From Calidifontibacter indicus (GTDB lineage Bacteria > Actinomycetota > Actinomycetes > Actinomycetales > Dermatophilaceae): a stretch of 64,000 bases of DNA. A program made the translations under genes and the position numbers. Location of the stretch: NCBI RefSeq assembly GCF_003386865.1, contig NZ_QTUA01000001.1, positions 682,001-746,000 of the forward strand, read 5' to 3'. Below the pieces are notes generated by a model. The model was not told the DNA's origin. It did no database searches and saw only the letters and a program-made list of their open reading frames with translations. Below, piece after piece: positions 3,959-22,075 of the stretch (within the stretch, counting starts at the first letter, position 1; every line of letters starts with the position of its first letter).

Positions 3959-5434
3959 GTGTCTGAATGGGACATCGCGGAGCCGCGGGCTGACGCACTG
4001 ATCGAGTCGCTCCGAGCGTTCGGATACACGCCAGAAGCCGCGATCGCTGACATCGTCGATAACAGCATCTCGGCGGGTGCCAAGACCATACGTATCGACA
4101 TGATCTGGGCAGGTCGCGATTCGATCGTTTCCATCGTCGACGACGGCAAGGGCATGACCGAGGGTGATCTGTACGTCGCGATGCGGCCCGGAAGCATGAG
4201 CCCCCTTGATGCCCGTTCAAAGGGTGACTTGGGCCGATTCGGGCTCGGGCTGAAGACTGCGTCGTTCTCCCAAGCTCGCGAACTCACCGTCTCGTCCCGA
4301 ACGCCGGCGGGCACCGCCATCCGACGGTGGGACCTCGACACCGTCGCGAAGACGGGGGAGTGGCGACTTCTGCGCACGGGCCCTCTGGCCGAGTCGGTAG
4401 ACCTTCAGCCACTTCGGCCATGCGGCACAGTCGTCACTTGGACTAAATGCGATCGGTTGGTCGGCGACGTCGACGCGGGCGACTCAAAGGCCCACGATCG
4501 CTTCCTCGGACTCATCCGGCGCGTCAAACATCATCTAGAGGCGACGTTCCATCGGTTCTTAGTCGGGCGAGGCCGGCTCTCGATGAGCCTCAATGGTCAG
4601 CCGCTCGCAGCATGGGACCCATTCCTGACCGATCACCCCGCGACTCAGCTGCTGTTCTCGGAGGAGCTCCCATTCCAAGGGGAGTTGGTAAAGGTGAAGG
4701 CGTACGTGCTTCCCCACCGCAGCAAGCTCTCACCCGCCGAAGTCGAACGTGGCCACGGCGCGATGGGCTGGAACCAACAGCAGGGCTTCTACCTCTATCG
4801 CTCCAACCGCCTCTTGGTCCAAGGCGACTGGCTAGGGCTTGGTTTGACGAAGGACGAGCACACTAAACTCGCGCGGATTGCGATCGACTTCCCTGCCAGC
4901 CTTGATCACGCATGGCAGGTTGACGTTAAGAAGTCAGCCGCACGTACTCCAGGACCGCTGGTTACTGAGCTGTTTCGTATTGCGAAGGTTGCTCGATCGC
5001 GAGCCGAGGAGGTGTACAGATTTCGTGGCAAAATCATGGCCTCCAAGAGCAGTCAACCATTTATCGTTGCGTGGGAGCAGTACACGGATCGGGCAGGCGA
5101 GATCCGCTACAGGGTCAACAGGTCCCACCCCGTGATCGTTGCTCTCATGGACGCCAATGCTGGACGAAAGAATGATATAGAGAAGGCGCTCCGTTTTATC
5201 GAGGAGACCGTCCCGACCACGCTCATCGGCGTCAGTATCGCTGATTCGTTGGATCACCAACCGACGCCGTTCGGAGGTGCGACCAAAGATCTCAAGCCAA
5301 TCATTAAATTCGTCTTCGCTGACCTCATCAAGGATGGCTACTCGGCGGATGAAGCCTTGAACCAGATCGCTGTCATCGAGCCGTTCGCGCAGTTCCCTCA
5401 AGTCGTTCAAGCCCTCAGGGAGAGTCAGAAATGA
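3959..5434 (+). CDS. MORC/MutL-like GHKL ATPase (first paralogue)
   Basis: The product has 491 residues and starts at GTG 3959 behind a GAGAGGGGG ribosome-binding site. The N-terminal Hsp90/MutL-type fold shows the N box ADIVDNSISAGA (Asn35), the DDGKGM motif (61-66) and the glycine-rich lid GRFGLGLKT (92-100). The remainder contains WNQQQGFYLYRSNRLL and DEHTKLARI, blocks shared with the second GHKL protein at 16196-17521. MORC-like ATPases are known from bacterial restriction-type operons and are thought to clamp DNA upon ATP binding. The gene overlaps the next by ATGA (5431-5434) and opens the operon. Confidence 0.9.
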   Translation: MSEWDIAEPRADALIESLRAFGYTPEAAIADIVDNSISAGAKTIRIDMIWAGRDSIVSIVDDGKGMTEGDLYVAMRPGSMSPLDARSKGDLGRFGLGLKTASFSQARELTVSSRTPAGTAIRRWDLDTVAKTGEWRLLRTGPLAESVDLQPLRPCGTVVTWTKCDRLVGDVDAGDSKAHDRFLGLIRRVKHHLEATFHRFLVGRGRLSMSLNGQPLAAWDPFLTDHPATQLLFSEELPFQGELVKVKAYVLPHRSKLSPAEVERGHGAMGWNQQQGFYLYRSNRLLVQGDWLGLGLTKDEHTKLARIAIDFPASLDHAWQVDVKKSAARTPGPLVTELFRIAKVARSRAEEVYRFRGKIMASKSSQPFIVAWEQYTDRAGEIRYRVNRSHPVIVALMDANAGRKNDIEKALRFIEETVPTTLIGVSIADSLDHQPTPFGGATKDLKPIIKFVFADLIKDGYSADEALNQIAVIEPFAQFPQVVQALRESQK

Positions 5435-8244
5435 GCAACACAATTTTGGTTCGCGGGTCAGTCATGTTGAAAATCGATCAGTACGCCAAGCAGAACAAGC
5501 CTGTGACCCCAGAGCAGATCAGGTCTTGGGTGGACAACTTCGCCGACGTGGTGGAGGGGATGGACCCAGGCGACATGGTCGATCGTGAGCAGATCGCAAA
5601 GGAGATTGAGGGCGATGTCAATGTGCACATCGGCACCTGGAACTCGATGTCAGACGACTCGGACCATATTCCGTGGCTGCATGCACGCCTCGAAGACAAG
5701 GAGGCGTGGAAGTTCTGGGATCGCTATAAGCGGTTCATGCGGGACGAGCTCAAGCTGCCACCGAAGTCGATCACACGACTGGATGAGGTAACAGACGAGA
5801 TCCTCGGCAGGTTGGAGGACCCGAAGCGCGAGGGAGGCTGGGATCGGCGCGGTCTTGTGGCTGGTCAAGTCCAGTCCGGCAAAACGGGAAACTACACGGG
5901 CCTAATCACAAAGGCGATCGATAACGGTTACAAGCTGATTGTCGTTCTAGCTGGCGTACATAACAGTCTTCGCAGTCAGACGCAAGCTCGGATCGACGAA
6001 GGAATCCTCGGTTTCGACACGAGGGCGATCCGCCAAGCCCAGCAGGCAGACGGCGCCAACCGCATCGGAGTGGGCAAGCTCGCAGGTGAATGGCTACACG
6101 TCAGCTCCTTCACATCGTCTTCCGAGTCCGGGGACTTCAGGCTGAATGTCGCTCAGGCAATGGGAGTGGTACCCGGAGGATCTGACCCGATCATTCTGGT
6201 GGTCAAGAAGAACAAGTCCATCCTCGATAATCTCTACAAGTGGTCGACGCATCTCAAAGGTACGACGGATCCAGAGACGGGGAAGTTCAGGGTCAAGAAC
6301 GTGCCGGTTCTTGTTATCGATGATGAGGCCGACCACGCATCGGTGAACACAAAGTTCGCGAAGGACGACAGCGAGATCGATCCGTCGGAAATCAATCGCT
6401 TGATTCGGAAATTTCTCGACACGTTCGAACAGACTGCGTACGTCGCGTACACGGCGACTCCGTTCGCGAACATCTTCATCGACCCAGATGCTGATCATTC
6501 CACGGTTGGCGAGGATCTGTTCCCGCGAAGCTTCATCATCAACCTTCCGGCCCCGAGCACCTATATCGGGCCTGAACGTGTGTTCGGACTTGACGCTGAC
6601 AACGCCAACGCAGTGGAAGGTGTCGAGGCCCTCGACATTGTCAGGGAGACGTCGGACTACGAGGAGTGGCTTCCGGACAAGCACAAGGCTCTCGACCAAT
6701 TGGGTGGTGAGCTGCCGAGCAGCCTCGAGGACGCGATTGTCTTCTTCCTGATGGCAGGAGCTGTCCGTAGATTACGTGGGCAAGCGCACAAGCACCACTC
6801 GATGCTGATCCACGTTACGCGCTTTACCGTCATGCAGCGTCGGGTCGCCGATCAAGTTGCGGAATATTTGGCGAACGTCACGGACAGACTGGAGTTCGGG
6901 GAAGGATCGTCGCCCCTCCTGGCCGCGCAGATCGACCGTCTCTGGCATGAGGATCTCCTTCCGACCAGTCTGGACATCTCGCGGCGTGAGGACCTTGCAT
7001 CACAGGTCGGGGACATTCCGACCTTGGACGAGGTAAAGGCCGAGATGGCTGAGGCAGGTCGTCAGACTCGACTCCACGTCGTCAACGGTACGTCTGCTGA
7101 CGCATTGGAGTATGTCGACCATCCCGATGGCATCAGCGTAATCGCGATTGGTGGGGACAAGCTCTCGCGCGGCCTTACATTGGAGGGCCTCTGCGTTTCG
7201 TACTATCTCCGTGCCAGCCGTATGTACGACACCCTCATGCAGATGGGAAGGTGGTTTGGCTACCGTCCAGGTTATCTGGACCTCTGTCGCCTGTACACGA
7301 CATCTGCCTTGGTCAACTGGTATGAAAAGATCACGGCTGCAAGTGCCGAGCTCCAAGCAGAGTTCGAGGCAATGTCCGCCGTCGGGTCTACCCCACAACA
7401 GTTCGGTCTCCGCGTTCGTCAACTTCCTGACGGCCTCTTGGTGACCTCGCCGCAAAAGCTTAAGCATGCTGCGACCTACTCCATATCCTTCAGCGGAGGA
7501 ATCTCTGAAACGGTGACATTCCTGCCGGACCAGCGCGAGGCGAACCTTAAGACACTTGCTGAGCTAATGGTCTCGCTGGGAGATGACCACTCGCCGGTCG
7601 GCGATGGTCGCGTGTGGAGAAACGTGGATGCAGACACGGTCATCAGGTTCTTGTCCGAGTACAAGGCGGACAAGGCAGCGCTGAAGAGTCGTCCGGAACC
7701 TCTCGTCAAGTACATCAAGACGCGTCGAGCGGAGGGTGAGCTGGGCTCGTGGACCGTCGTGATCGCCGGCCGACAGAACGGCTTGGAGCACTGGGACGTG
7801 GCCGGGGACACGCTCAGCCTCATCGAGCGGAGCAACCAGGCCGGCAAGGAGACGGCCCGTTATACCGTGCGACGGGTCGTGAGCCCTGCGCATGAGCTTG
7901 TCGACTTCACCGCGGGGTCGCCCGGCTGGGACCGCGCTCTTGCAGAGACCGTTGCGGCGTGGGAGCTGCGGCCGAACAAGAAGGCGGGCGCGAAGCCGCC
8001 GTCCTTGCCCAGCGGGCGGGCGGAACGATTCCGCCGGTCGGTTAACGACGGCCTGCTGCTCGTGTACCCCTTGTCGGCCACGTCATGGTTGAAAACCCAT
8101 GAGGGGGAGTGTCTTTCCGGCGAACCGTTCGTCGGGTTCGCGGTGTCGTTCCCGCATTCTGTGGGGGCGAAGCCTTTGGAGTACAAGGTCAACCCGGTCT
8201 TCCTAAAGAACGTCTTCGGATGGGATGACGACGACGATGCGTGA
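5431..8244 (+). CDS. Z1 domain helicase/NTPase
   Basis: The protein has 937 residues. A superfamily 2-type core is visible: Walker A GQVQSGKT (145-152), Walker B DDEAD (297-301), the motif III-like AYTATPFANIF, and C-terminal IGGDKLSRGLTLEGL and QMGRWFGYRPGY. The latter blocks typify the Z1 domain found beside MORC-like ATPases and AIPR proteins. The likely role is ATP-driven movement along or remodelling of foreign DNA for the adjacent nuclease. Starts at 5431 and 5464 are both possible; 5431 gives the ATGA overlap with the upstream gene. The 3' end overlaps the nuclease gene. Confidence 0.92.
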   Translation: MSNTILVRGSVMLKIDQYAKQNKPVTPEQIRSWVDNFADVVEGMDPGDMVDREQIAKEIEGDVNVHIGTWNSMSDDSDHIPWLHARLEDKEAWKFWDRYKRFMRDELKLPPKSITRLDEVTDEILGRLEDPKREGGWDRRGLVAGQVQSGKTGNYTGLITKAIDNGYKLIVVLAGVHNSLRSQTQARIDEGILGFDTRAIRQAQQADGANRIGVGKLAGEWLHVSSFTSSSESGDFRLNVAQAMGVVPGGSDPIILVVKKNKSILDNLYKWSTHLKGTTDPETGKFRVKNVPVLVIDDEADHASVNTKFAKDDSEIDPSEINRLIRKFLDTFEQTAYVAYTATPFANIFIDPDADHSTVGEDLFPRSFIINLPAPSTYIGPERVFGLDADNANAVEGVEALDIVRETSDYEEWLPDKHKALDQLGGELPSSLEDAIVFFLMAGAVRRLRGQAHKHHSMLIHVTRFTVMQRRVADQVAEYLANVTDRLEFGEGSSPLLAAQIDRLWHEDLLPTSLDISRREDLASQVGDIPTLDEVKAEMAEAGRQTRLHVVNGTSADALEYVDHPDGISVIAIGGDKLSRGLTLEGLCVSYYLRASRMYDTLMQMGRWFGYRPGYLDLCRLYTTSALVNWYEKITAASAELQAEFEAMSAVGSTPQQFGLRVRQLPDGLLVTSPQKLKHAATYSISFSGGISETVTFLPDQREANLKTLAELMVSLGDDHSPVGDGRVWRNVDADTVIRFLSEYKADKAALKSRPEPLVKYIKTRRAEGELGSWTVVIAGRQNGLEHWDVAGDTLSLIERSNQAGKETARYTVRRVVSPAHELVDFTAGSPGWDRALAETVAAWELRPNKKAGAKPPSLPSGRAERFRRSVNDGLLLVYPLSATSWLKTHEGECLSGEPFVGFAVSFPHSVGAKPLEYKVNPVFLKNVFGWDDDDDA

Positions 8245-9232
8245 CGTATTGGACCCAGCCCTGTGGGCGAAGATCGCGGAGGATCCGCTGCATGAAGGCG
8301 CGGTGTTGCGCCGAGTGTTGCCCGGGTTGCCGCATGACGTGTTCATCGGCGAGATTCGCCCGAGCAGAAATCGGGTGCTCGAACTATCGGTGCTCGGATT
8401 GGCCTCTAACATGCCCAAGCGGTGGCGCCAGTCCAGAGGGCTGGAAATCACGGTCGACTCGACGACCTCCGACCGCACGAAGGTGCGTCTCCGATCGATG
8501 ACGAAGCTCGGGGATCCACTCTTTACGGAACTCGCATCCGATGTTGTCAGCACGCTCGCTTCATTCTCCGGCGCCGATGCCGCGACGCGGGTCGTCGAAC
8601 GTGTCCTCGCTTGGCAGGACTTCTACGCGCGACGGGGTGAACCGTTCTCTGAGGAACGAGCAGCGGGTCTGTTCGGCGAACTGACACTTCTGGGAGGCTG
8701 CTTCGTCGACGTGTTGGGCATATCCGCTGCGGTGTTTGGGTGGACAGGTCCGGACCCCGCACTTCAGGATTTCCAGTTTGCCGACCTTGCCGTGGAGGTA
8801 AAGACCTACCGCGGGCTCGGCGCCGGACACATGAGGATCAGCTCCGAGCGTCAGTTGGAGCACGTCGGCGTTACGGCGCTCTACGTGGCGTACGTGTCGC
8901 TAGATCAGCGCCAAGACGGCACCGGCACCACGCTTCTCGAACTGATAGGTGATGTTCGCCGACGGTTGAGCGACTCGGACCATGCTTTGCACCTCTTTGA
9001 AGGAAAGCTCCTGAACAGTGGCTGGCGCGATTCGCATGCGGAGTTTCGTGCCGAGCGCTACGAGGTTCGCTCCGTCGAGTTCTTCTTGGTCTCGGACACA
9101 TTCCCGCGCCTGGTCGCTAGCGAACTCCCAACTGGCATCAGCAATGTGAGCTACCTTGTTGAGCGAAGCGCACTGAGTCCGTACTTGACGGAGAGAAATG
9201 CAGTTGTGGCGCACCTGAGGACGAAGCAATGA
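8225..9232 (+). CDS. PD-(D/E)XK motif nuclease (DUF4420)
   Basis: The protein has 335 residues from ATG 8225, or 331 from ATG 8237. The nuclease core is seen as AAGLFGEL (helix with Glu), then QDFQFADLAVEVKTYRG, where the Asp and the ExK carry the PD-(D/E)XK metal site. This is the arrangement of the PD-(D/E)XK protein family encoded next to Z1 and AIPR genes. It is likely the DNA-cutting effector of the operon. It overlaps the Z1 gene at its 5' end and the AIPR gene by ATGA at 9229-9232. Confidence 0.87.
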   Translation: MTTTMRDVLDPALWAKIAEDPLHEGAVLRRVLPGLPHDVFIGEIRPSRNRVLELSVLGLASNMPKRWRQSRGLEITVDSTTSDRTKVRLRSMTKLGDPLFTELASDVVSTLASFSGADAATRVVERVLAWQDFYARRGEPFSEERAAGLFGELTLLGGCFVDVLGISAAVFGWTGPDPALQDFQFADLAVEVKTYRGLGAGHMRISSERQLEHVGVTALYVAYVSLDQRQDGTGTTLLELIGDVRRRLSDSDHALHLFEGKLLNSGWRDSHAEFRAERYEVRSVEFFLVSDTFPRLVASELPTGISNVSYLVERSALSPYLTERNAVVAHLRTKQ

Positions 9233-11277
9233 GCACGAATGAGATCTCGGCGTTCATCGTTGATCTCCATCAGGAGTTGGCGCTCACGGCGTCTCAGGAA
9301 GGAGCCGAGCGCAGCATCCCAGAGGCATTCACGGAGTACATGTTTGACGTGCTCACTGAAGCCGGCGAGATCGACGGCGCAAATGTGGCGATGTACGAGG
9401 CCCGAGCGGCTAGGGCCTCGGGGTTCACTTTCAGTGAGGACGAATCGACGCTCTGGCTGTTTCTGACCGACTATCGCGGCAGTCTGGATCTCGAGTCATA
9501 CACGAAGACCTCGTTGGACGCAGCGGTGAGGCGAATGGTGGGGTTCCTTGAGCAAGCTGCCGGCGGCCTCTGGCGGCAGCTGGAGGAGACGTCACCGGCT
9601 TGGGACATGGCTCAGCGCATAGCCGAGACATGGGCGAAGGTGGGCGAAATCCGCTTGATGGTCCTCACGAACTCGGATCTTCGAACGAACGTTGTAGCCC
9701 CAGAGCCGATAGATTCGCGGCCGGTCCACGTGTCAGTGTGGGACGCCACGAGACTGCACCAGCTCATGACGAGCGGACGCACCCAAGAGCCGATCCACGT
9801 CGACGTCGTTGCATTGTGGGGACAGGCAATACCGTGCCTTGGCCCACAAGGGGACCCAGGACGTTACGAGGCATATTTGACTATGCTGCCCGGAGAGTTT
9901 ATCTCGAAAATTTACGAGGAGCACGGGCCGCGATTGCTCGAGCTCAACGTGCGCTCCTTCCTCCAATCTAGAGGCAAGGTGAATCGTGGAATCCAGGAGA
10001 CGATCAAGGATGAGCCTCGAAGTTTCCTCGCCTACAACAACGGCATATCAATGACCGCCGCCGCGGTCGACGTGGTCGAGCTGCCGACGGGTGGCATGGG
10101 GATCTCCACGATCCATGACCTCCAAATCGTCAATGGAGGTCAGACCAGTGCTTCCCTGCACTACGCCAAAGTGAAGGCTAAACAGGACCTTTCGGGGGTC
10201 TATGTCCAAGCCAAGTTGTCAGTTGTGGAACCGACCTATTTGCACAATCTTGTGCCGCGGATCAGTCAGTTCGCGAACAGTCAGAACAAGGTCAATATGG
10301 CGGATTTCAGTGCTAACGACGCGTTCCACGTCGAGGTTGAGAAGCTATCTCGATCGGTCTGGGCCCCGGGTAAGGGCGGTACAGCGCGGATGACCCGCTG
10401 GTTCTACGAACGGGCTCGCGGACAGTACGCGGATGCTCATGCTCGCGAACGGACACCTGCGAAACAGCGCGAGTTCAAGGCTGTTCATCCGCTCAGCCAG
10501 AAGTTCACCAAGACCGATCTCGCAAAGTTCGAAAACACTTGGGATCAGCTGCCGTGGATTGTGTCCTACGGCGCGGAGAAGAACTTTCGTGAGTTCATGC
10601 TTCGCATCGAACGGCGAGGCGCGTCCTTCAAGGTGGACCAAGGGTACTTCGAGCTGCTGGTCGCCAAGGCGTTGCTGTTCCGCTCGACCGAGAAGCTCGT
10701 CGGAAGTCTCAACCTCGGCGGTTATAGGGCACAGACCGTGGCCTACACACTCGCCAAGTTGGCACACCAGACTGAACAGCGCGTGGATCTCAGGGCACTT
10801 TGGCGGTCGCAAGACTTGCCGGAGCCACTCGCCCAAGCCATCATCGAACTGGCGCCCCAGATCCACGAGATACTTTTGCAGAGTGCCGGCACTAGGAACA
10901 TCAGCGAATGGGCGAAAAAGGAGGATTGCTGGAAGGCGATCCTGTCGATGCCGTGGGCCTTACCCGACGATCTGGCAAAGTCACTCACGACTAGCGGCCA
11001 GCGTACGCGGACCACGGCTGACACAAGTGTTGGCGAGATGTTGAGCGACGATGAACGCGCGGCCGTCGTGGCGGTCACGTCCATTACTGCTGACGACTGG
11101 TTCGCTCTTAGTCAATGGGCGAAGCAGACTGGGAACTTGCAGCCTTGGCAACGTAGCCTTGCCTTCAGTCTTGGTCGAGTCGTGAAGGACGGCAGGACGC
11201 CCTCGAGGAAGCAGGCGAACCAAGGCGCGCTAATTTTAGAAGAGGCCAAGCGGTTGGGCTTCGCGGGTGCGCGTTGA
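9229..11277 (+). CDS. AIPR family protein
   Basis: The product has 682 residues and matches the abortive-infection phage-resistance (AIPR) family. Diagnostic blocks are RSFLAYNNGISMTA (about residues 264-277), LQIVNGGQTSASLHYA (about 299-314) and ISQFANSQNKVNMADFSAND (about 344-363). The family is known from phage-resistance and restriction loci, but its biochemical activity is not firmly established. The fixed order GHKL-Z1-nuclease-AIPR suggests a shared complex. The start overlaps the nuclease stop (ATGA) and the stop overlaps the next start (TTGA, 11274-11277). Confidence 0.92.
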   Translation: MSTNEISAFIVDLHQELALTASQEGAERSIPEAFTEYMFDVLTEAGEIDGANVAMYEARAARASGFTFSEDESTLWLFLTDYRGSLDLESYTKTSLDAAVRRMVGFLEQAAGGLWRQLEETSPAWDMAQRIAETWAKVGEIRLMVLTNSDLRTNVVAPEPIDSRPVHVSVWDATRLHQLMTSGRTQEPIHVDVVALWGQAIPCLGPQGDPGRYEAYLTMLPGEFISKIYEEHGPRLLELNVRSFLQSRGKVNRGIQETIKDEPRSFLAYNNGISMTAAAVDVVELPTGGMGISTIHDLQIVNGGQTSASLHYAKVKAKQDLSGVYVQAKLSVVEPTYLHNLVPRISQFANSQNKVNMADFSANDAFHVEVEKLSRSVWAPGKGGTARMTRWFYERARGQYADAHARERTPAKQREFKAVHPLSQKFTKTDLAKFENTWDQLPWIVSYGAEKNFREFMLRIERRGASFKVDQGYFELLVAKALLFRSTEKLVGSLNLGGYRAQTVAYTLAKLAHQTEQRVDLRALWRSQDLPEPLAQAIIELAPQIHEILLQSAGTRNISEWAKKEDCWKAILSMPWALPDDLAKSLTTSGQRTRTTADTSVGEMLSDDERAAVVAVTSITADDWFALSQWAKQTGNLQPWQRSLAFSLGRVVKDGRTPSRKQANQGALILEEAKRLGFAGAR

Positions 11278-13679
11278 CTGACGGAAGTGACGACTTGCAG
11301 GAAACGTCGGGCATGGACTGTTGCGAGGCGCTGTCCTTCGATGCTCCGGAAATAACCCCTTTCCGCCAGTCGATCCGGGAATGGACTCTGCTCGAACTCT
11401 TGAAGGAGGACGGTTTCACGACGTTCGGTAGCGCTGCGCGCCTATCGAAATCTGAACTCTGTGCCCTATCGAACATTGGTCCACAAAATGCCGACGAAGT
11501 CATTGACCTTCTCGATCGGATCCGGGAAGCGATGCCGTCGGACCATCGGGCTCTGGGTTCAGAGGTGCCAGGATCCGCTGCGACAGACCACTTGTCATTT
11601 GCGACGTCTGGGACCACATCCGATATGGATGCAGAGAAAGGATCGGACGATGCTGAGCGCAGTTCGCAGCGGGAAGATCCGCCGCTAACTGAACAACGCC
11701 CCGGAGGCGACGACCGGCTTGCAGCGGGCAGCTTGGGTCGCGAGTTTCCTAGCCTCGCGCTCATCGGTACGAGACGGCTGGATGACCCTCTGCTCACGAC
11801 GGCGTGGGTCGAGCTAGGCGATGACCTTACACACAGCTGGCTCGCCAAGACCGGTGCCGTGGTTGTTGGCGACTTGCTCGACCTCACCCGCCGCGACCTT
11901 CTCGATGTGCGTGGACTCGGGCCAGCCAAGGTTCGGCGCCTCTATCACTACTTGGAGCGGCTCGCCATCGCGGCGTCTGCCTTGTCAGCCTGGGACGATG
12001 ATCCAGTAGCACTACCAGACCCGAGTGCTCAGACGGACCCGTCGAGTCGCGGCCCCGATCCAGAGGTTCGCGCCAACCTAGAGATCGTCCTCGCGTGGGC
12101 GGCTGCGGCTGCAGGTGCGACCACCTGGGGCGAGGCTTTAGCTGCGTCTACAGGAGCCATGCCTGCGGATGTTGCAGAAGCTTGGGAAGCGTTGCGCGAC
12201 GTGGCCTTGCCGGTGGCGGCCGACGAGTCGCCGCTGGCTGAGTTCCTCGCCGATGACCCAAGACGGGCGCGTGTACTTCTCGCGCGACTTGTGAGTAACG
12301 AGCCCCTCACCTTGCAAGAACTTGGCCTTGAGTTCGGGCTGACGCGTGAACGAATGCGGCAGATAGAGTCGGTGGGCTTGGACCGCCTGCGATCCAACTT
12401 CGCGTCTTCGCCAACATGGCGCACCGTGAGATGGGCGGCGGAACGTCTTGTAGCGCACGCAGGGACATATGCGCCGAGCCGCGTCTTGGCGGACGTTCTA
12501 TGGAAATGGAGTCCAGAGGAACAGAGACTCATTGCGCGGTTGGCAGGATACGACCGCATTGATCCGGTATTGGTCCGTGGTGGGCTGAAGTTGCCGAGCG
12601 TCAATGAGTTGCCCACCATGGCTGAGACTGCGTTCGTCGTGGATGAGTACGAGCTGATCGAGCATCTTCGCTCCTCGGGCGTGCTCGAACAGCACATCGA
12701 CTTCGTACTCAACTCGATTCCCGGCGTTTCACGGGTTGATGGGCAGCTGGTTCGGTGGGGTGGCTCGGTCGTGGAAAAGGCTATCGCGGTTCTCGAGCTC
12801 CGCGACGAACCCCAGGATATCGATCGGTTGGTGGCCGCCGCATACGGCGAGGGTGGATCGAGGTCAGCGCGCAACAGGATCCTTGAGGATCCCCGCATGC
12901 TGAGAGTCACGAAGAACAAGATTGGTCTGAGACGGTGGGGTGGTGCCTACTACCGGGGAGTGGCCGAGGCCATGTTAGAGAGCTTGGCCGGTGGTCCGAT
13001 GGACTTAGACGAGCTGGCGGACGAACTTGCGCAACGCTATGAGATCTCCTCGGCCTCCGTTCGCATGTACGCGGCGGCGCCGGCCTTCAAGGTGACGGGG
13101 GAGGTGATCACTCTTCGATCTCGACACGATCCGTACGTGCCGAGAGACAAGCCGTGGAAGGTCCGTGGTCTGTACCGGCAGCCCGGGGTTCCTATGATCG
13201 TGTGGTGCATTGTCGTTGACAAAGACATACTCCGAGGCAGCGGGCGGAGCATCCCGCAGGAGATCGCGTTGGACCTTGGCCTCGGACCGGGTGATCGGAC
13301 AGAGTTGTCGACCGCAGTAGGTCTAATCCCCGTTGCATGGAGCGAGACAGCCAATTCCGGGCCGCATATCGGATCGATACGCGAGCTGGTGGTCCACGCC
13401 GAGGCTTCAATCCACGATCGACTGGCCCTCCGGTTCCACCCGGTGGACCACGCACTGGAGGTGCGACTCATCAGCCCCCACACCGAGGATGATATCGTGG
13501 ATGATTTGGTTCGGCTCACGACACTCCCGAGAGCGTTGGCGGAAGACCGCACTCGGCTCGCTGAATCTGTTGGCACGGCGCCGTCGGACCTAGTTGCGGC
13601 ACTTGAAGCGCGGGGTGACGTCGAAGTGGCTTCCTTGGTCGCCCGCCTGCCCGCGCCAGCGAGTCGACCCTCGGCATGA
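11274..13679 (+). CDS. HhH / sigma region 4-like / HARE-HTH multidomain protein
   Basis: The 801-residue protein begins with TTG 11274 overlapping the AIPR stop. Domains in order: an RNAP alpha-CTD-like HhH (about 40-85, LSNIGPQNADEVIDLL); an acidic low-complexity linker; a second HhH (about 185-230, LLDVRGLGPAKVRRLYHYL); a sigma-70 region 4-like HTH (about 335-375, LTLQELGLEFGLTRERMRQI); and a winged HTH resembling HARE-HTH (about 495-550, DIDRLVAAAYGEGGSRSARN). The C-terminal 200 residues are unassigned. It is most likely a DNA-binding or modification-sensing component, or a regulator of the operon. No catalytic site is visible. Confidence 0.72.
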   Translation: MTDGSDDLQETSGMDCCEALSFDAPEITPFRQSIREWTLLELLKEDGFTTFGSAARLSKSELCALSNIGPQNADEVIDLLDRIREAMPSDHRALGSEVPGSAATDHLSFATSGTTSDMDAEKGSDDAERSSQREDPPLTEQRPGGDDRLAAGSLGREFPSLALIGTRRLDDPLLTTAWVELGDDLTHSWLAKTGAVVVGDLLDLTRRDLLDVRGLGPAKVRRLYHYLERLAIAASALSAWDDDPVALPDPSAQTDPSSRGPDPEVRANLEIVLAWAAAAAGATTWGEALAASTGAMPADVAEAWEALRDVALPVAADESPLAEFLADDPRRARVLLARLVSNEPLTLQELGLEFGLTRERMRQIESVGLDRLRSNFASSPTWRTVRWAAERLVAHAGTYAPSRVLADVLWKWSPEEQRLIARLAGYDRIDPVLVRGGLKLPSVNELPTMAETAFVVDEYELIEHLRSSGVLEQHIDFVLNSIPGVSRVDGQLVRWGGSVVEKAIAVLELRDEPQDIDRLVAAAYGEGGSRSARNRILEDPRMLRVTKNKIGLRRWGGAYYRGVAEAMLESLAGGPMDLDELADELAQRYEISSASVRMYAAAPAFKVTGEVITLRSRHDPYVPRDKPWKVRGLYRQPGVPMIVWCIVVDKDILRGSGRSIPQEIALDLGLGPGDRTELSTAVGLIPVAWSETANSGPHIGSIRELVVHAEASIHDRLALRFHPVDHALEVRLISPHTEDDIVDDLVRLTTLPRALAEDRTRLAESVGTAPSDLVAALEARGDVEVASLVARLPAPASRPSA

Positions 13680-13808: not shown

Positions 13809-15761
13809 ATGGCCATCGCACCGCCTCGGGGACGACCGAACGTCAAGCTTGTTCGCGGGCCGTTCCTCAAGTTCGAGCCGCATCCTGACCACGTAGTCGA
13901 CGGCGAGAGTTTCAGGGAACTCTGTGCGCGCCTCCGAGACGCCCCTGAACCGCCGCTGCTGGTCGCAGACCTGTTCTCGGGTGCTGGTGGTATGAGTCTT
14001 GGGCTCGAGCGAGCGGGTATGAAGGTTGTCTTCGGTGCCGACCACGACCCCGACGCTCTGGAGACCCACGCGCACCACTTCGCCGGCTTCTCCGCGGGTT
14101 GGGATCTCGGCGATCCTGCCGTCGTCGCAGAGGTCGGCGAGTTGCTGCGGTCGGTTGAAATCGACGTGTTGGCGGGTGGGCCTCCGTGTCAGCCGTTCTC
14201 AAAGGCCGGTCGATCGGGCATGAGGCATCTCGTCCGGCAAGGTATCCGGGACGCGCATGATAAGCGTCGCGATCTTTGGGAGTCCTACCTCGAGGTCATC
14301 CGACTGGCGAAGCCGCGGGTCGTCATCATGGAGAATGTGCCTGAGATGGCGCTGGATCGTGAGATGTTCATTCTTCGGACGATGGCGCTGACTCTCGAGC
14401 ACATGGGTTACTCCGTGCGCGCCCGTGTTACGGAAGCTTGGCGATATGGCGTGCCTCAGTTCCGACAGCGTCTCATCCTCGTGGCGATGCGCGACGGTCG
14501 CTCATTCGACTGGCCCCAGGAGGTCGCCAAGAAGGTCACCGTCATGAACGCGATCTCTGACCTCCCGGTCGTGGAGGGTGGCTGGCGGCCAAAGGGTGGC
14601 GCTCGAGGCTGGGCCGAGTACGACGGCCCGCGCACCGACTTCCAGCGCGCGATGCGCCGAGGTGTGTCGGACAACAGCGTGGGGCGGGTGTACGACCACA
14701 TCACCCGTCCAGTCCGCCCCGATGATCTCGCTGCGTTTGAGTTGCTGGACACGAACATGCGGTACTCGCAGCTCCCGGAATCCCTCAAGCGCTACCGCGA
14801 CGACATCTTCGACGACAAGTACAAGCGGCTGGACGGCGACCACCTCTCCCGGACGATCACCGCCCACATCTCCAAGGACGGATACTGGTACATCCATCCC
14901 GAGCAGAACAGGACTCTCACGGTCAGGGAGGCTGCCAGAATCCAGACCTTTCCTGATGACTTCCGATTTGCAGGATCTCCGACCGCCGCCTTCCGCCAGA
15001 TCGGAAATGCCGTACCCCCATTCCTCGCGGAGGCCATTGGACGGCAGGTGATTCGTACTCTGAACGCTCCGCCGCAGCGTGCGTTGAAAACACATGAGAC
15101 TGCAGGAAAACTCGCATCTTGGTTTGACTCCGACCCCGCGTGGGCGCCATGGCTCAGGACAGGAAACCGTTGGCATGCCATCGTCGGTGAAACGCTACTC
15201 GGGACGGAGACCGCAGCGAATGTCCGGTCCGTGTGGCCGCATCTGGCGAAGCTTTCCTCACCTCCGGAACTACTGGTGAACCGCGAGACCGCCCGTGAGG
15301 TCGCTTCGTGGATCGGGAAGGACTCCGACCTCGAGCAGTTGATCCTCGCTGCCCGCAGATCGGAGGAGTCAGGAACACCGTGGACGGTCAACGATGAACT
15401 GTTGGCGGAGCTGGTGGCTGAAAAGGTCGTATCCCGTGTTGCGGCTGAGCTGGCGATGATCGTCGACGCAGAGGGAGAGGAGCCCGTCATCGCGACGGCT
15501 GGTGCCCTACGTGTCGCCGGTCGGTTCGAACTTGGGCGCGAGCGGTGGTTGACCAACCGGAACACCGACGGGCGTTTGGCGATCGGACGATTGATCGGCT
15601 TCGCCGACAACAGCCGGCGTGCACACTTGGGTCTCATCGCGCTCGGAGCGACGGTGTGCTCGCCGAAGGGGCCGGACTGCGGGGTCTGCCCGTTGGAGGA
15701 GTGGTGCAGCTACGAGCGAGCTGATCGCGGCCGCAAGGACGACTCCCCAACGGGTGCCTGA
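13809..15761 (+). CDS. DNA (cytosine-5-) methyltransferase fused to an Fe-S HhH (EndoIII-like) domain
   Basis: The protein has 650 residues. Residues about 50-420 form a complete C5 methyltransferase: DLFSGAGG (motif I, 54-61), GGPPCQPFS with catalytic Cys127 (motif IV), ENVP (motif VI, from 175), QFRQR (motif VIII), a target-recognition stretch, then RTITAH, LTVREAARIQTFPDDF and RQIGNAVPP (motifs IX/X). Residues about 440-650 look like an endonuclease III/MutY-type HhH domain ending in Cys617-x6-Cys624-x2-Cys627-x5-Cys633, the canonical 4Fe-4S loop spacing. The usual catalytic Lys of the HhH hairpin is not evident, so the domain may only bind DNA. The 3' end overlaps vsr by 52 bases, convergently. 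Confidence 0.88.
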   Translation: MAIAPPRGRPNVKLVRGPFLKFEPHPDHVVDGESFRELCARLRDAPEPPLLVADLFSGAGGMSLGLERAGMKVVFGADHDPDALETHAHHFAGFSAGWDLGDPAVVAEVGELLRSVEIDVLAGGPPCQPFSKAGRSGMRHLVRQGIRDAHDKRRDLWESYLEVIRLAKPRVVIMENVPEMALDREMFILRTMALTLEHMGYSVRARVTEAWRYGVPQFRQRLILVAMRDGRSFDWPQEVAKKVTVMNAISDLPVVEGGWRPKGGARGWAEYDGPRTDFQRAMRRGVSDNSVGRVYDHITRPVRPDDLAAFELLDTNMRYSQLPESLKRYRDDIFDDKYKRLDGDHLSRTITAHISKDGYWYIHPEQNRTLTVREAARIQTFPDDFRFAGSPTAAFRQIGNAVPPFLAEAIGRQVIRTLNAPPQRALKTHETAGKLASWFDSDPAWAPWLRTGNRWHAIVGETLLGTETAANVRSVWPHLAKLSSPPELLVNRETAREVASWIGKDSDLEQLILAARRSEESGTPWTVNDELLAELVAEKVVSRVAAELAMIVDAEGEEPVIATAGALRVAGRFELGRERWLTNRNTDGRLAIGRLIGFADNSRRAHLGLIALGATVCSPKGPDCGVCPLEEWCSYERADRGRKDDSPTGA

Positions 15762-16165
15762 GGGTCGGTCGATGGTCGAACTGTGCGTTCGACCTCGGCC
15801 GTCGCGGCGTCCAAGTCGGTGCACTCACGGATGCGCACGACGGTCCACCCGAGGGCTTCGAGGTGCTCGTCCGTCTGGCGGTCGCGGGCGACATTCTGCG
15901 CGAGTTTCGTACGCCACCACTCCGTGTTCGTCTTGGGAAGAGACCCGTGTTCCGTGCATGCATGCCAGAAGCAGCCGTCAACGAAGACGGCCACCCGGGC
16001 TCGCGGGAAGAGGATGTCTGCTCGACGTCGTGGCATGCCGGGGAGTGGCGCGTCGACGCGATATCGGAGTCCATCCGCGTGGAGTCGTCGACGTAACCTC
16101 AGCTCGGGTACGGTATCGCGGCGCGCTTGCCGGGACATCCGCTTCGACACATCGGATGCAGTCAT
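15710..16165 (-). CDS. Very short patch repair (Vsr)-type endonuclease
   Basis: The protein has 151 residues and the Vsr fold: SRQARRDTVPELRLRRRLHADGLRYRV, then RRADILFPRARVAVFVDGCFWHACTEH (catalytic Asp and the VDGCFWH signature), TNTEWWRTKLAQNVARDRQTDEHLEALGW and VVRIRECTD. Vsr enzymes nick T:G mismatches made by deamination of 5-methylcytosine, which fits the adjacent C5 methyltransferase. In MORC-type operons it may instead act as a restriction nuclease. It is the only minus-strand gene of the module, and its end overlaps the methyltransferase end. Confidence 0.9.
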   Translation of the reverse strand: MTASDVSKRMSRQARRDTVPELRLRRRLHADGLRYRVDAPLPGMPRRRADILFPRARVAVFVDGCFWHACTEHGSLPKTNTEWWRTKLAQNVARDRQTDEHLEALGWTVVRIRECTDLDAATAEVERTVRPSTDPQAPVGESSLRPRSARS

Positions 16166-16195
16166 ACCGCCTGTATACGCTCATTGGAGGCCGGG

Positions 16196-17521
16196 ATGAA
16201 CTTCATGCCCAGTCGCGCACCGTCACCAGGAAGGACCGCCGTGTCGCACGCGGACAGAATTCAGATCGCACCATCGGCTGCTCGTCTCACCGGGTCGCTC
16301 CGTGACATCGGCTACGACTTCCACACTGCGGTGGCCGATTTGGTCGACAACTCCGTTACTGCGGGGGCTACTACCGTCTCTGTCGAGGCGACGTTCTCGC
16401 CGGGTGATTCGTACGTGCTGATCCACGACGACGGCAACGGTATGACCGAGAGCGAGCTGATCGAAGCTCTGCGCTTCGGCACGCGCCGGACCTATGACGA
16501 TGGAGACCTCGGGCGGTTCGGGCTCGGGCTGAAGACGGGAACCTTCTCCCAGTGCCGCCGGCTCACCGTGGTGACCCGGCGCGGTAAGGGCCCGCTCTCC
16601 TCTATGACCCTCGACCTGAACCTAATCGATCGGATGGACGACTGGGTCGTCACCTCCAACGAGATGAGCGCAGGCATCGAAGCGGCGACGGACATGCTGG
16701 GAAGTTCGCACGGAACCGTCGTGGTGTGGGAAGACCTCGACCGAGCCGTTCCGGATCGCCACGCCGACACCGGGTGGGGGCGCCGAAGGCTGAACCACCT
16801 GGCGGCGAAGACCAGCGAACACCTCGGCTTGGTGTTCCACCGCTTCCTCGAAGGCGCAGTTCCCGGTGCGCCGAAGGTCAGGATGCTGGTAAACGGCGAG
16901 GAGGTGATGCCCTGGAACCCCTTCGCGCCCGACGAGGCCGAGCGCCAAGTGCTGGATGCGCAGAGCTTCGAGATCGAGACGGCACACGGCGCGCACGACG
17001 TGCGCTTCCAAGGTTTCGTCCTGCCTCCGCGTGACCAGTTCTCCAGCCAAGAGGCGTTCGAGCGGCTGTCTGGGCCGCTGAACTGGAACCGGCAGCAGGG
17101 CCTTCATATCTATCGTGCAAACCGCATCGTCCAGTTCGGTGGCTGGAACGGTGTCCGCGGGATCGACGAGCACACCAAGCTCGCGCGTGCCAGTCTCGAC
17201 TTCGGGACGGGGCTCGACGAGGAATTCCAGATCAACGTGGCGAAGATGCGGACGTCCATCCCACCGTCGCTCAAGAAGATGCTCGAGCGGCCGATCCACG
17301 AGGTGTGTGTGCGCGCGGACGACGTCTATCGCCGCGCCGCGAACAGTGGACCGCGGTCAGCTACGCCTGCTCGGACTAGTGAGCCTGCGGAGATGCGAGA
17401 GGTCGGAATTGCCCTCAAGTCAGCTCTGCTCGAGACGAGTGGCGGAATAGATCAGTATCGATCCGTCCTCCGCACGTTGCGCCGGCAGCATCCTGAACTC
17501 GCGAAGTCGCTTAAGGTCTGA
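16196..17521 (+). CDS. MORC/MutL-like GHKL ATPase (second paralogue)
   Basis: From ATG 16196 (GGAGG at 16186-16190) the protein has 441 residues. GTG 16241, with AGGAAGGA just upstream, is an alternative start. ATP-binding motifs are ADLVDNSVTAGA (Asn52), DDGNGM (78-83) and GRFGLGLKTG (from 106). The C-terminal half shares LNWNRQQGLHIYRANRI and DEHTKLARASLDF with the first GHKL gene at 3959-5434. The paralogues bracket the operon and could form a heteromer or two alternative clamps. A strong hairpin terminator follows at 17538-17571. Confidence 0.88.
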   Translation: MNFMPSRAPSPGRTAVSHADRIQIAPSAARLTGSLRDIGYDFHTAVADLVDNSVTAGATTVSVEATFSPGDSYVLIHDDGNGMTESELIEALRFGTRRTYDDGDLGRFGLGLKTGTFSQCRRLTVVTRRGKGPLSSMTLDLNLIDRMDDWVVTSNEMSAGIEAATDMLGSSHGTVVVWEDLDRAVPDRHADTGWGRRRLNHLAAKTSEHLGLVFHRFLEGAVPGAPKVRMLVNGEEVMPWNPFAPDEAERQVLDAQSFEIETAHGAHDVRFQGFVLPPRDQFSSQEAFERLSGPLNWNRQQGLHIYRANRIVQFGGWNGVRGIDEHTKLARASLDFGTGLDEEFQINVAKMRTSIPPSLKKMLERPIHEVCVRADDVYRRAANSGPRSATPARTSEPAEMREVGIALKSALLETSGGIDQYRSVLRTLRRQHPELAKSLKV

Positions 17522-18487: not shown

Positions 18488-18910
18488 ATGGCGGGTCTCC
18501 TCGATCGATGGCTCGCACGATGGGGAGAGCCGGCTTGGGTGGGCGAATTGGTTGCCCACGTCAATGACGAGTTGAAGCGGGCACTGGGCGGTCCTCACCT
18601 CCAGCTCGGGTCGAGGCACTTCATGAAGCCCAACCTCGACCGCGATGTGCTCCGGCGCATTTGGACGTACGACATCGAGCCCTTTATCGAAGACCAGTTC
18701 TTCGGTGATGCAGCCAGAATCGAGGAGTTCCGGTTCGCGCAAGTCTGGGCCCGATTCGCGCACCTCGCCGCGGAGTCGATCAGCGAGAACCCGCCGACGA
18801 CGCGGCCGAGGGCTGAGAAATGCCGGTCCTCTCGGAGCACGAGTCGATCTATCTGGACCTGTCGCGTTCGCAGGCGGGGGCCTTGCAGCGAACGGGCTTC
18901 GTCGATGTGA
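18488..18910 (+). pseudogene. McrB C-terminal fragment
   Basis: Only about 110 residues of McrB-like C-terminus remain (LGSRHFMKPNLDRDVLRRIWTYDIEPFIEDQF...). The GTPase Walker motifs are absent. The frame runs past the expected end into mcrC. A TGA in another frame at 18814-18816, just before the mcrC ATG, looks like the original stop, which implies a small frameshift near 18790-18810. McrB is the GTP-driven motor of the methylation-dependent McrBC nuclease. Without its motor domain this copy cannot work. Confidence 0.65.
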
Positions 18911-19565
18911 GCCTCGCCATGGGTGATCGCTGGCGGGTAACGGCGTCGTCCTACGTGGGATCACTCGTAGTGGATGGGGTCGCATTGTTGATCCGGCCAA
19001 AGATCAACCCCGAGAATATATTCTTGCTCCTTGAACCCGGTCTACCGCCACACTCCTGGCGGAAGGAAGCGTTCGACTACGACCTCACCTCCGACTTGTT
19101 GCCATCGGTCATCGCCTTCTTCGCTCGGACAGTCGAGACCACTCTCGGACGGGGAGTGCTGCGCTCCTATCAAGTCCGCACCGACCCGCTGGTGGCCCTA
19201 CGTGGACGACCCGACGTCGTCGGACAGTTCAAGCGATCCGGCGTACTCACACCCGTGGGCTGCGCATACGACGAGTTCTCTGAGGATGTGCCAGAGAACA
19301 GGGTGCGTAGGGCCGCCATCCGACTCGCGTTGCGCGTCCCGCGGGTGGATCCGAGTGTCGATCTCCCGAGGGGGTGTTGATCTACTGCCGTCGCCAGGGA
19401 GATTCTGAGCAAAGCACCGTGATAGTGAGGAACGCGGGGAAGAGGCTCGTGCTTCGATCACTCGACCTGACAGGTTCACCTGAGCAGGTCGAGCACGAGA
19501 TCGCCGCGCTTGCCGATGCGATCTCGGGGACAAGTTCGACGGTGTGGGCGCGCGACGGGGGTTAG
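18820..19565 (+). pseudogene. McrC remnant with internal deletion
   Basis: From ATG 18820 there are about 180 residues of McrC N-terminus (LSEHESIYLDLSRSQAGAL, GRPDVVGQFKRSG, DEFSEDVPENRVRRAAIRLAL) ending at a TGA at 19380. The McrC C-terminus then follows in another frame (GVLIYCRRQGDSEQSTVIVRNAGKRLVLRSLDL) to 19565. About 150 residues, including the PD-(D/E)XK nuclease core, appear to be deleted at the junction near 19350-19375. The McrBC system is therefore dead on both subunits. Confidence 0.75.
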
Positions 19566-21126: not shown

Positions 21127-21999
21127 CTATCCGCGGCCGAACCAACTGCTGCACTTGGCATTGTGGACGCGCAGCCACTCGGCGTTCGGATGGGCCGCCT
21201 TGTCGTTCGGCATCCGAAGTTGTTGGCCGTGTAGATCGGTGTATTCCTTCGACTCCCGCACCTGAGGCGCAAGGTGCACCCGGTACGCATCGTCGATGGT
21301 CAGCAGGTGCAGGTCGAACAGTGTGTGGATGTCGGACCGGAGCAGGAGGGAGTTCGTTACCACGTTGGTGTGCGGCCCCTTGTACTCCATGATGTGGGCC
21401 GCTTCCAGGATCGGCAGCACGTTGGTGCCGGTGACCGCGCAACGCCGGCCGTAGGCCCTCACCGCGTCCTCGCGGAACTTGCCGCTTCCCTGCCTGCGAA
21501 CCACGTCCGCCGGCACTCGGACTCGGTTGTCGGATGCCATGTCTTCCATTGACAAGGGTCCGGATTCGTCGGTGCTCCACATCGGGTCGGCGCGGAGGTC
21601 GACGCCTGCGACCTGCGACTCGAGCCAGCGAATGGCGTCGGGATCCTTCGTGCTCGGCTTGGTCTGGAATGCCTGAAGACCGGTATTTGCTTTCACATCC
21701 TTGCCGGTTGGTTGTCCCACTGAGGTCGGGTGATCGACCACGAAGTTGAACCGGTACTTGTAGTCGTTCCGTTTCGCGTCGTCGATGTTCCAAGGCAGTC
21801 CTGTACCCAGCGGGGTTTCGTAGAGGTCGTCGAGCACACGCACGCTGCCGACGAAGCTCTCACCCGACTGCCAGAAGTAGACAATGTCTCCTGCCCGGAC
21901 GTCTCGCCGTCTCGTGATGTCCCAGAACGAGTTCTCGCAGGCGATCCGCCAGTGCTCGGGGTTCTCCCGGTCGATGGCCATGATCCAGGCTGAAGACAT
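21127..21999 (-). CDS. EVE-like domain HNH endonuclease
   Basis: The 290-residue protein starts at ATG 21999 behind GAGGAG. The open frame extends 10 codons further to 22029 without a better site. The N-terminal 150 residues read as a PUA/EVE-like module (WIMAIDRENPEHWRIA, GDIVYFWQSGESFVGSVRV), a fold used by other nucleases to sense modified bases. The C-terminal HNH nuclease has REDAVRAYGRRCAVTG, LPILEAAHIMEYKG and NSLLLRSDIHTLFDLHLLTID, with the catalytic His in EAAHI. It is likely a modification-dependent restriction endonuclease. Confidence 0.85.
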   Translation of the reverse strand: MSSAWIMAIDRENPEHWRIACENSFWDITRRRDVRAGDIVYFWQSGESFVGSVRVLDDLYETPLGTGLPWNIDDAKRNDYKYRFNFVVDHPTSVGQPTGKDVKANTGLQAFQTKPSTKDPDAIRWLESQVAGVDLRADPMWSTDESGPLSMEDMASDNRVRVPADVVRRQGSGKFREDAVRAYGRRCAVTGTNVLPILEAAHIMEYKGPHTNVVTNSLLLRSDIHTLFDLHLLTIDDAYRVHLAPQVRESKEYTDLHGQQLRMPNDKAAHPNAEWLRVHNAKCSSWFGRG

Positions 22000-22075
22000 G
22001 CTGCTCCTCGAAGAAGAGCGGGGAGGCATGTCCTGGTGCGAAAGCCTGTCGATCCGCGGTTGATGGATTTACCTG

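Follow-up and report, generated by a model that had tools for sequence, protein, structure and literature searches.

A C5 cytosine methyltransferase fused to a probable pseudo-glycosylase domain with a conserved 4Fe-4S loop motif, in an MZA-like island of Calidifontibacter indicus

Introduction

Mig.Mth, the T:G mismatch glycosylase whose chain is deposited as 1KEA, is an active, stand-alone enzyme with an Fe-S loop, and on an archaeal plasmid its gene is found together with one for a C5 methylase. MutY, MUTYH and EndoIII share with it the helix-hairpin-helix (HhH)-GPD fold and a C-x6-C-x2-C-x5-C loop. In MUTYH, by the account given in PMC12000561, R241 forms hydrogen bonds to a cluster Cys, to an Asn and to the DNA backbone, the Asn in turn bonding the Asp; mutation of R245 or P295 empties the cluster site, with R245H and R245C losing cluster loading (its Table 1), and the roles of the 4Fe-4S cofactor are called enigmatic.

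C5 methylases also occur in defence loci, among them MZA-like islands and DISARM. In the MORC/paraMORC restriction-modification operons (Iyer et al. 2008, PMC2292703), GHKL ATPases are found with helicases, C5 methylases, Vsr and AIPR proteins, as in the locus described here; the words glycosylase, HhH and helix-hairpin are absent from the text of that paper, its figures left out. The present locus lies in a 64,000-nucleotide stretch of C. indicus DNA (the window; contig NZ_QTUA01000001.1, positions 682,001 to 746,000) and encodes a C5 methyltransferase with a C-terminal tail related to these glycosylases. The domain family, the methyltransferase, Mig-like repair and the defence genes are all of kinds already known. 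The combination of a C5 methylase with a pseudo-glycosylase in which the Fe-S loop is retained, and for which living intermediates exist, was not found described in open-access full texts, most subscription papers lying outside that search.

Results

The fusion protein and its methyltransferase domain

The fusion gene and its two domains are as follows.

13809..15761, + strand: the entire 650-aa fusion of a C5 cytosine methyltransferase with a pseudo-HhH-GPD domain, one of six full-length rows in alignment A1
13962..15053, + strand: C5 methyltransferase domain, aa 52-415 (Pfam PF00145, E 2e-59)
15090..15731, + strand: pseudo-HhH-GPD domain, aa 428-641 (homology by sequence, profile and AlphaFold model)

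The protein belongs to the C5 cytosine methyltransferases by both family score (171.6 bits against the NCBIfam dcm model, cut-off 100.65) and motifs: GPPCQPF, ENV, QFRQR and GNAVPP are all intact and form invariant columns in A1. The complete C5 methyltransferase proposed in an earlier sequence-only reading is thus confirmed, and the open reading frame and the spacing of Cys617, Cys624, Cys627 and Cys633 are as that reading described them. Its start for the tail, 15100, was nearly right, the domain beginning slightly upstream at about 15090.

A sequencing or frameshift artefact as the origin of the fusion is ruled out, as the full-length form recurs in many independent genomes. It was found in 6 of 396 sampled genomes of the window's phylum, the window's own genome counted (each sample comprised 393-400 genomes and is no census); further fusion relatives were taken from the best 80 matches of one scan. 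A plasmid search returned one near full-length relative, H1, from Synechococcus elongatus, the tail of which is also catalytically dead in the sense defined below. Searching a phage collection with the fused relative L070 gave matches to the methyltransferase only, in 8 records, none reaching 80% coverage, and a PHROGs search with two tails gave zero matches.

The tail is homologous to HhH-GPD glycosylases over its whole length

Taken alone, the tail has 1KEA as its best sequence match in the PDB (E 2.8e-6, residues 9-209 of 223). The genome's own MutY is matched by residues 434-641 (E 5.2e-6), and the NCBIfam MutY model matches the tail with E 4.1e-6, far under its equivalog cut-off. A profile of 16 related tails (A4) matched solved chains with E values of 3e-17 to 2e-16, MutY from 3e-17 and 1KEA at 1.8e-16, and aligned by hhalign with a profile of four intact stand-alone glycosylases (A3) at 99.7% and E 3.4e-25 over 203 columns. 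For a second group of dead tails (A5, 18 sequences) the hhalign match was confined to the last 89 columns (96.1%, E 3.4e-9). Pfam EndIII_4Fe-2S scores 11.2 and 12.9 bits on the window tail, under its cut-off of 20.5, so routine annotation would miss the tail. Because A4 also matches ordinary MutY-like genes (in 163 of 396 genomes), it is unusable for counting the fused form.

Structure prediction agrees with the sequence matches. The AlphaFold model of the tail, built from a 47-row alignment (A2), has a pLDDT of 92.8 and a pTM of 0.85; it is not wholly independent of the intact enzymes, because A2 holds two catalytically intact rows, L057 and L070. Prediction from the single sequence was poor (pLDDT 39.6). 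Foldseek placed 1KEA first for the model as well (E 4.6e-5), and the rows listed with E up to 0.001 comprise 22 chains, all of them Mig, MutY or EndoIII. The comparison with EndoIII that the sequence-only reading had proposed was run with VIA-align and gave a Z score of 14.1, against 18.6 for MutY and 15.8 for Mig; a fold unrelated to HhH-GPD was not found. The tail is thus placed in the HhH-GPD superfamily by descent, with domain-wide homology and, in the model, a two-lobed all-helical fold, and the earlier assignment of an EndoIII/MutY-class domain with an Fe-S loop is borne out. A chance pattern of Cys residues is ruled out by the full-length homology and by conservation. Descent of the tail from a Mig/MutY-type HhH-GPD glycosylase is almost certain.

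The excision site is lost

An alignment of 59 tails or glycosylases separates 7 rows with the catalytic Asp (intact) from 52 without it (dead), the window among the latter. Two sites in the window mark the loss.

15420..15440, + strand: what remains of the helix-hairpin-helix hairpin (aa 538-544, EKVVSRV, opposite LPGVGEY in the alignment)
15495..15497, + strand: Thr563, which takes the place of the catalytic Asp in the alignment (D144 in Mig, D236 in MUTYH)

All 52 dead rows lack the catalytic Asp, the Asn two residues after it and the Tyr of the hairpin, with G, T, N, S, A, V, R or K in place of the Asp. None of these rows has PGVG or PGIG in the hairpin; its first Gly is kept in 21 and its second in 5, so the hairpin is eroded in the dead rows, not erased, and some contact with a DNA lesion could remain. 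The window and all other dead rows therefore lack two marks of an HhH-GPD enzyme, the intact LPGVG hairpin and the catalytic Asp. At Mig positions F27, R47, A50, Y126, D144 and L187 the window has A, T, A, V, T and L, which is not the Mig-type set for T:G. In contrast to stand-alone, active Mig.Mth, the window tail is fused to a methyltransferase and is without the equivalents of Asp144, Asn146, Tyr126 and Arg47; it differs from MutY/MUTYH and EndoIII, whose fold and cluster loop it shares, in lacking the catalytic Asp, the Asn and an intact hairpin. The Prochlorococcus tails L068 and L069 align poorly, and their Arg and Asp columns are therefore unsure.

The sequence-only reading had singled out a hairpin without the catalytic Lys. 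The Lys is indeed absent but is not decisive, because the corresponding residue in the Mig.Mth hairpin is Tyr126 (according to PMC2714593) and 7/7 intact rows have Tyr there; the active site is gone all the same, through the Asp, Asn and Tyr, and loss of the Asp replaces loss of the Lys as the key lesion. Judged from the alignment, the window tail has, with near certainty, lost base-excision catalysis and would be a pseudo-glycosylase.

The 4Fe-4S side is kept

The C-terminal half of the tail presents the opposite picture to the excision site.

15090..15473, + strand: helical barrel half, aa 428-555 (mean share of the commonest letter 0.41)
15510..15512, + strand: Arg568, equivalent to GsMutY R149 and MUTYH R241, the link from cluster to active site (47/47 dead four-Cys rows)
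15522..15524, + strand: Arg572, equated with MUTYH R245 through the ungapped offset (kept in 0.979 of the 47 dead rows with four Cys)
15657..15707, + strand: 4Fe-4S cluster loop, C617-x6-C624-x2-C627-x5-C633 (Cys spacing, alignments)

All four Cys are present in 47 of the 52 dead rows, the window included, and each of those 47 has Arg five residues after the Asp position. Pro622, the counterpart of MUTYH P295 by offset, is conserved in 0.872 of them, so that Arg568, Arg572 and Pro622 stand at the positions of MUTYH R241, R245 and P295. With the Arg and Cys kept and the Asn and Asp gone, the cluster half of the MUTYH-type chain of contacts is retained and its active-site half lost. As the loop has the C-x6-C-x2-C-x5-C spacing and the residues for cluster loading in MUTYH are kept, the tail very probably loads a [4Fe-4S] cluster. 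Five dead rows have lost the Cys (the actinobacterial L059, L062 and L064 and the Prochlorococcus L068 and L069), and some relatives can therefore do without the cluster; the Asp+5 position reads K, K and A in the three actinobacterial rows and R, in a poor alignment, in the Prochlorococcus rows.

With gap columns counted as letters, conservation averages 0.56 over the Fe-S half of the tail but 0.41 over the barrel half. In P0003 (from L220) the barrel half is shorter by about 76 residues, with 86 residues between the end of the methyltransferase and the Arg where dead rows have 153-189 (median 162), yet the Arg and the four Cys are kept. In a set of pairs with rows in common, all from dead-form relatives and none including the window, the tail dN/dS is 0.050-0.275 for the 13 of 16 pairs that were computable (synonymous sites are saturated in the other three), and that of the methyltransferase is 0.047-0.159 in the same 13 pairs. 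Tail dN exceeds methyltransferase dN in 10 of the 13, the exceptions being L033/L079, L050/L051 and L033/L037. By these measures the dead tails are under constraint.

Intact relatives and the methyltransferase tree

Four methyltransferase fusions with an intact glycosylase were found in Chloroflexota: L057, L070, L222 and L204, the last with the N-terminal part of its methyltransferase outside the open frame and the methyltransferase thus broken. The alignment gives the tails of L057, L070 and L204 an LPGVG-like hairpin, Tyr, Asp and four Cys, and L222 is likewise by eye. The intact L070 tail has 1KEA as its best PDB match (E 6.3e-29), and at Mig F27, R47, A50, Y126, D144 and L187 the tails of L057, L070 and L204 have F, R, A, Y, D and Q. 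EcMutY V45A, which has the same Ala/Gln pair, is described as binding T:G 1273 times tighter than wild type without excising it (PMC2714593). From its residues, the fused intact form would likely excise T:G, although its Mig-type residues are joined by Gln at L187 and the Ala/Gln EcMutY binds without excision.

Separate intact glycosylase genes also adjoin C5 methyltransferases: in L206, L207 and L211, beside 5 of 6 non-fused Chloroflexota methyltransferases (L223-L227 but not L228), and in 5 of 7 loci inspected in the sample of the window's phylum (L238, L239, L240, L242 and L247). L072 has a separate intact Mig-like glycosylase gene (8785-9639, +) upstream of its methyltransferase, in an MZA locus.

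In a methyltransferase tree of 66 rows, the fused proteins and L072 form a clade of 57 rows (support 100/98). Support for the node joining the dead lineage is 95/74, where the tool asks for 95 and 80. The position of the root is unsure, as it falls on a pair of long branches whose union may, by the tool's own warning, be false. The tree needs one change between intact and dead, two losses of the Cys and two changes between fused and separate; as L072, with its separate glycosylase, falls inside the fused part, a single fusion is not proven.

The defence island and Vsr

The fusion gene stands among the following genes.

3959..5434, + strand: MzaB-like GHKL ATPase (PADLOC 5.9e-103)
5431..8244, + strand: MzaC-like Z1 helicase (PADLOC 3.5e-209; Pfam Z1 9e-77)
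8225..9232, + strand: MzaD-like PD-(D/E)XK protein, DUF4420 (Pfam and PADLOC)
9229..11277, + strand: MzaE-like AIPR protein (Pfam AIPR 1.9e-92; PADLOC MzaE 5.6e-106)
11274..13679, + strand: MzaA-like protein that has sigma-70 region 4 and weakly matches HhH_5 / RNA-pol alpha-CTD (Pfam, PADLOC, NCBIfam)
15710..16165, - strand: Vsr-like nicking endonuclease, antiparallel to the fusion gene and overlapping its 3' end (NCBIfam vsr, 107.4 bits against a cut-off of 97.85; Pfam Vsr 1.1e-17)
16127..17521, + strand: second MzaB-like GHKL ATPase (PADLOC MzaB 4.8e-60)

Homologues of MzaB, C, D and E are co-located in the order of MZA (MzaABCDE), and the sigma region is common to MzaA. The window differs from MZA in missing all the NCBIfam equivalog cut-offs (MzaA to MzaE 31.7/800, 426.6/850, 763/1500, 143.2/420 and 435.5/1050 bits) and in adding the methyltransferase fusion, Vsr and the second GHKL ATPase; the island is thus MZA-like. 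The window methyltransferase also matches DrmMII of DISARM (PADLOC, 2.8e-84), and DrmA and DrmB had zero matches among the nine window proteins scanned. The Vsr nickase that the sequence-only reading placed next to the fusion gene is secure, its vsr score being above the cut-off. Downstream, the product of positions 18820-19380 (+) resembles, by eye, McrC of methylcytosine-dependent restriction, and an HNH endonuclease-like protein lies at 21127-22029 (-; PADLOC HNH 1.8e-12), with a homologue between the two methyltransferases of L043.

Two relatives carry two fused dead-form methyltransferases each, with Vsr: L043 (9920-11938, +, and 14830-16716, -) and L066 (9532-11769, +, and 12224-14308, -). 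The paired enzymes come from different branches of the tree, perhaps for an asymmetric target site.

The fused intact form is found beside MZA genes in L070 and beside another GHKL protein in L057, and an intact-tail fused methyltransferase adjoins DISARM DrmA in L229 (5443-12700) and L216 (2758-10155), in L229 with DrmB too; with the intact form beside MZA, DISARM and GHKL genes, the fusion module is common to several defence systems. Dead-form loci have an MzaC match in 39 of 52 and a Vsr match in 36 of 52, some stretches being short and one of the 36, L103, having only a Vsr fragment about 10 kb away. Vsr was found in none of four fused-intact loci and none of nine separate-intact loci, of which the L218 and L226 stretches span just 3.5-4.2 kb. 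The genome of L070 has zero Vsr matches and that of L057 one, on another contig. These data fit a take-over of T:G repair by Vsr once the glycosylase died. When tested, such a replacement was not established, the tree offering a single independent pair, and as 16 of the 52 dead loci are without Vsr it stays a suggestion.

Discussion

The history that these observations support best would begin with a Mig/MutY-type glycosylase acting as the repair partner of a C5 methylase from a separate, adjoining gene, as still seen in Chloroflexota and others. One such glycosylase would then have fused to the methyltransferase with its catalytic residues intact (as in L057, L070 and L222), and a large lineage, the window among its members, would later have lost the Asp, Asn, Tyr and full hairpin while keeping the 4Fe-4S loop and its packing residues. 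In the protein that resulted, the [4Fe-4S] cluster would staple the C-terminal half into a positively assisted surface for binding the DNA backbone, and the stapled lobe with its conserved Arg may contact DNA or a partner and help the methylase at its sites; where a Vsr gene is present, Vsr would do the T:G repair. In MUTYH the conserved Arg reaches the DNA backbone as well as a cluster Cys. The tail would serve as a module for DNA binding or docking that needs no catalysis. We give about an even chance to the specific role, a non-catalytic DNA-binding or scaffold module of a modification methylase in an MZA-like island, and rather favour the account as a whole, from glycosylase descent through fusion and catalytic death to a cluster-stapled non-catalytic module.

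The sequence-only reading had suggested that the protein could watch for mismatched or deaminated methyl-C sites. Its ancestry speaks for this, Mig.Mth being the nearest solved relative and the intact relatives lying beside, or fused to, C5 methylases. A tail that still recognised T:G at the methylase's own sites without excision, handing it to Vsr or protecting it, would also sit well with Vsr in 36 of 52 dead-form loci and in none of the intact ones, and the excision-weak EcMutY V45A, with its 1273-fold tighter T:G binding, is a precedent (PMC2714593). Intact lesion reading is nevertheless argued against by the loss of the Tyr, Asn, Asp and full hairpin in 52/52 rows, by the better conservation of the cluster side and by the lower conservation, and the partial deletion in P0003, of the barrel half, the one that would read the lesion. 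The Vsr contrast amounts to one independent comparison on the tree, with 16 dead loci lacking Vsr, and V45A raised mutation by blocking repair (same source), so passive binding could even hinder Vsr. We consider such a mismatch reader unlikely. An active glycosylase with a rearranged active site is extremely improbable: the window retains a Glu aligned to Mig E42, but just 18 of the 47 dead four-Cys rows do, the catalytic Asp has given way to eight different residues, and MutY D138N and D144N are, by their PDB titles, the mutants of trapped or anti-substrate structures.

The same reading had offered, as another possibility, a switch driven by the Fe-S redox state. Conservation in the tail is strongest for residues on the cluster side, and 4Fe-4S clusters are often electrochemically active (PMC9266487), both of which would suit a redox or charge-transport switch in which the oxidation state of the cluster gates methylation or the defence system. 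A structural role accounts for the same conservation, however, and five relatives keep the tail without the Cys; we regard this switch as distinctly improbable. That the tail is a neutral relic with no present function is very unlikely: it diverges faster than the methyltransferase (dN in 10 of 13 pairs) and the Cys were lost twice on the tree, but the dN/dS range, the four Cys in 47 of 52 rows and the Arg in 47 of 47 do not suit a neutral leftover.

The non-catalytic, cluster-stapled module thus remains the preferred reading. With the cluster ligands and the linking Arg kept and the Asn and Asp lost, the family offers natural proteins for measuring cluster function without excision. It is quite unlikely that the Fe-S half, freed from catalysis, is reused as a cluster-based switch or sensor through which the state of the cluster or the integrity of the DNA would control self-marking; if this were true, the family would be a natural experiment separating MutY-type cluster function from base excision. 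Its members trace a path that starts with a methylase paired with a repair gene, passes by way of a fusion that looks active and ends in a defence methylase with a pseudo-enzyme as one of its parts. This path bears on how modification systems handle the deamination of their own methyl-C.
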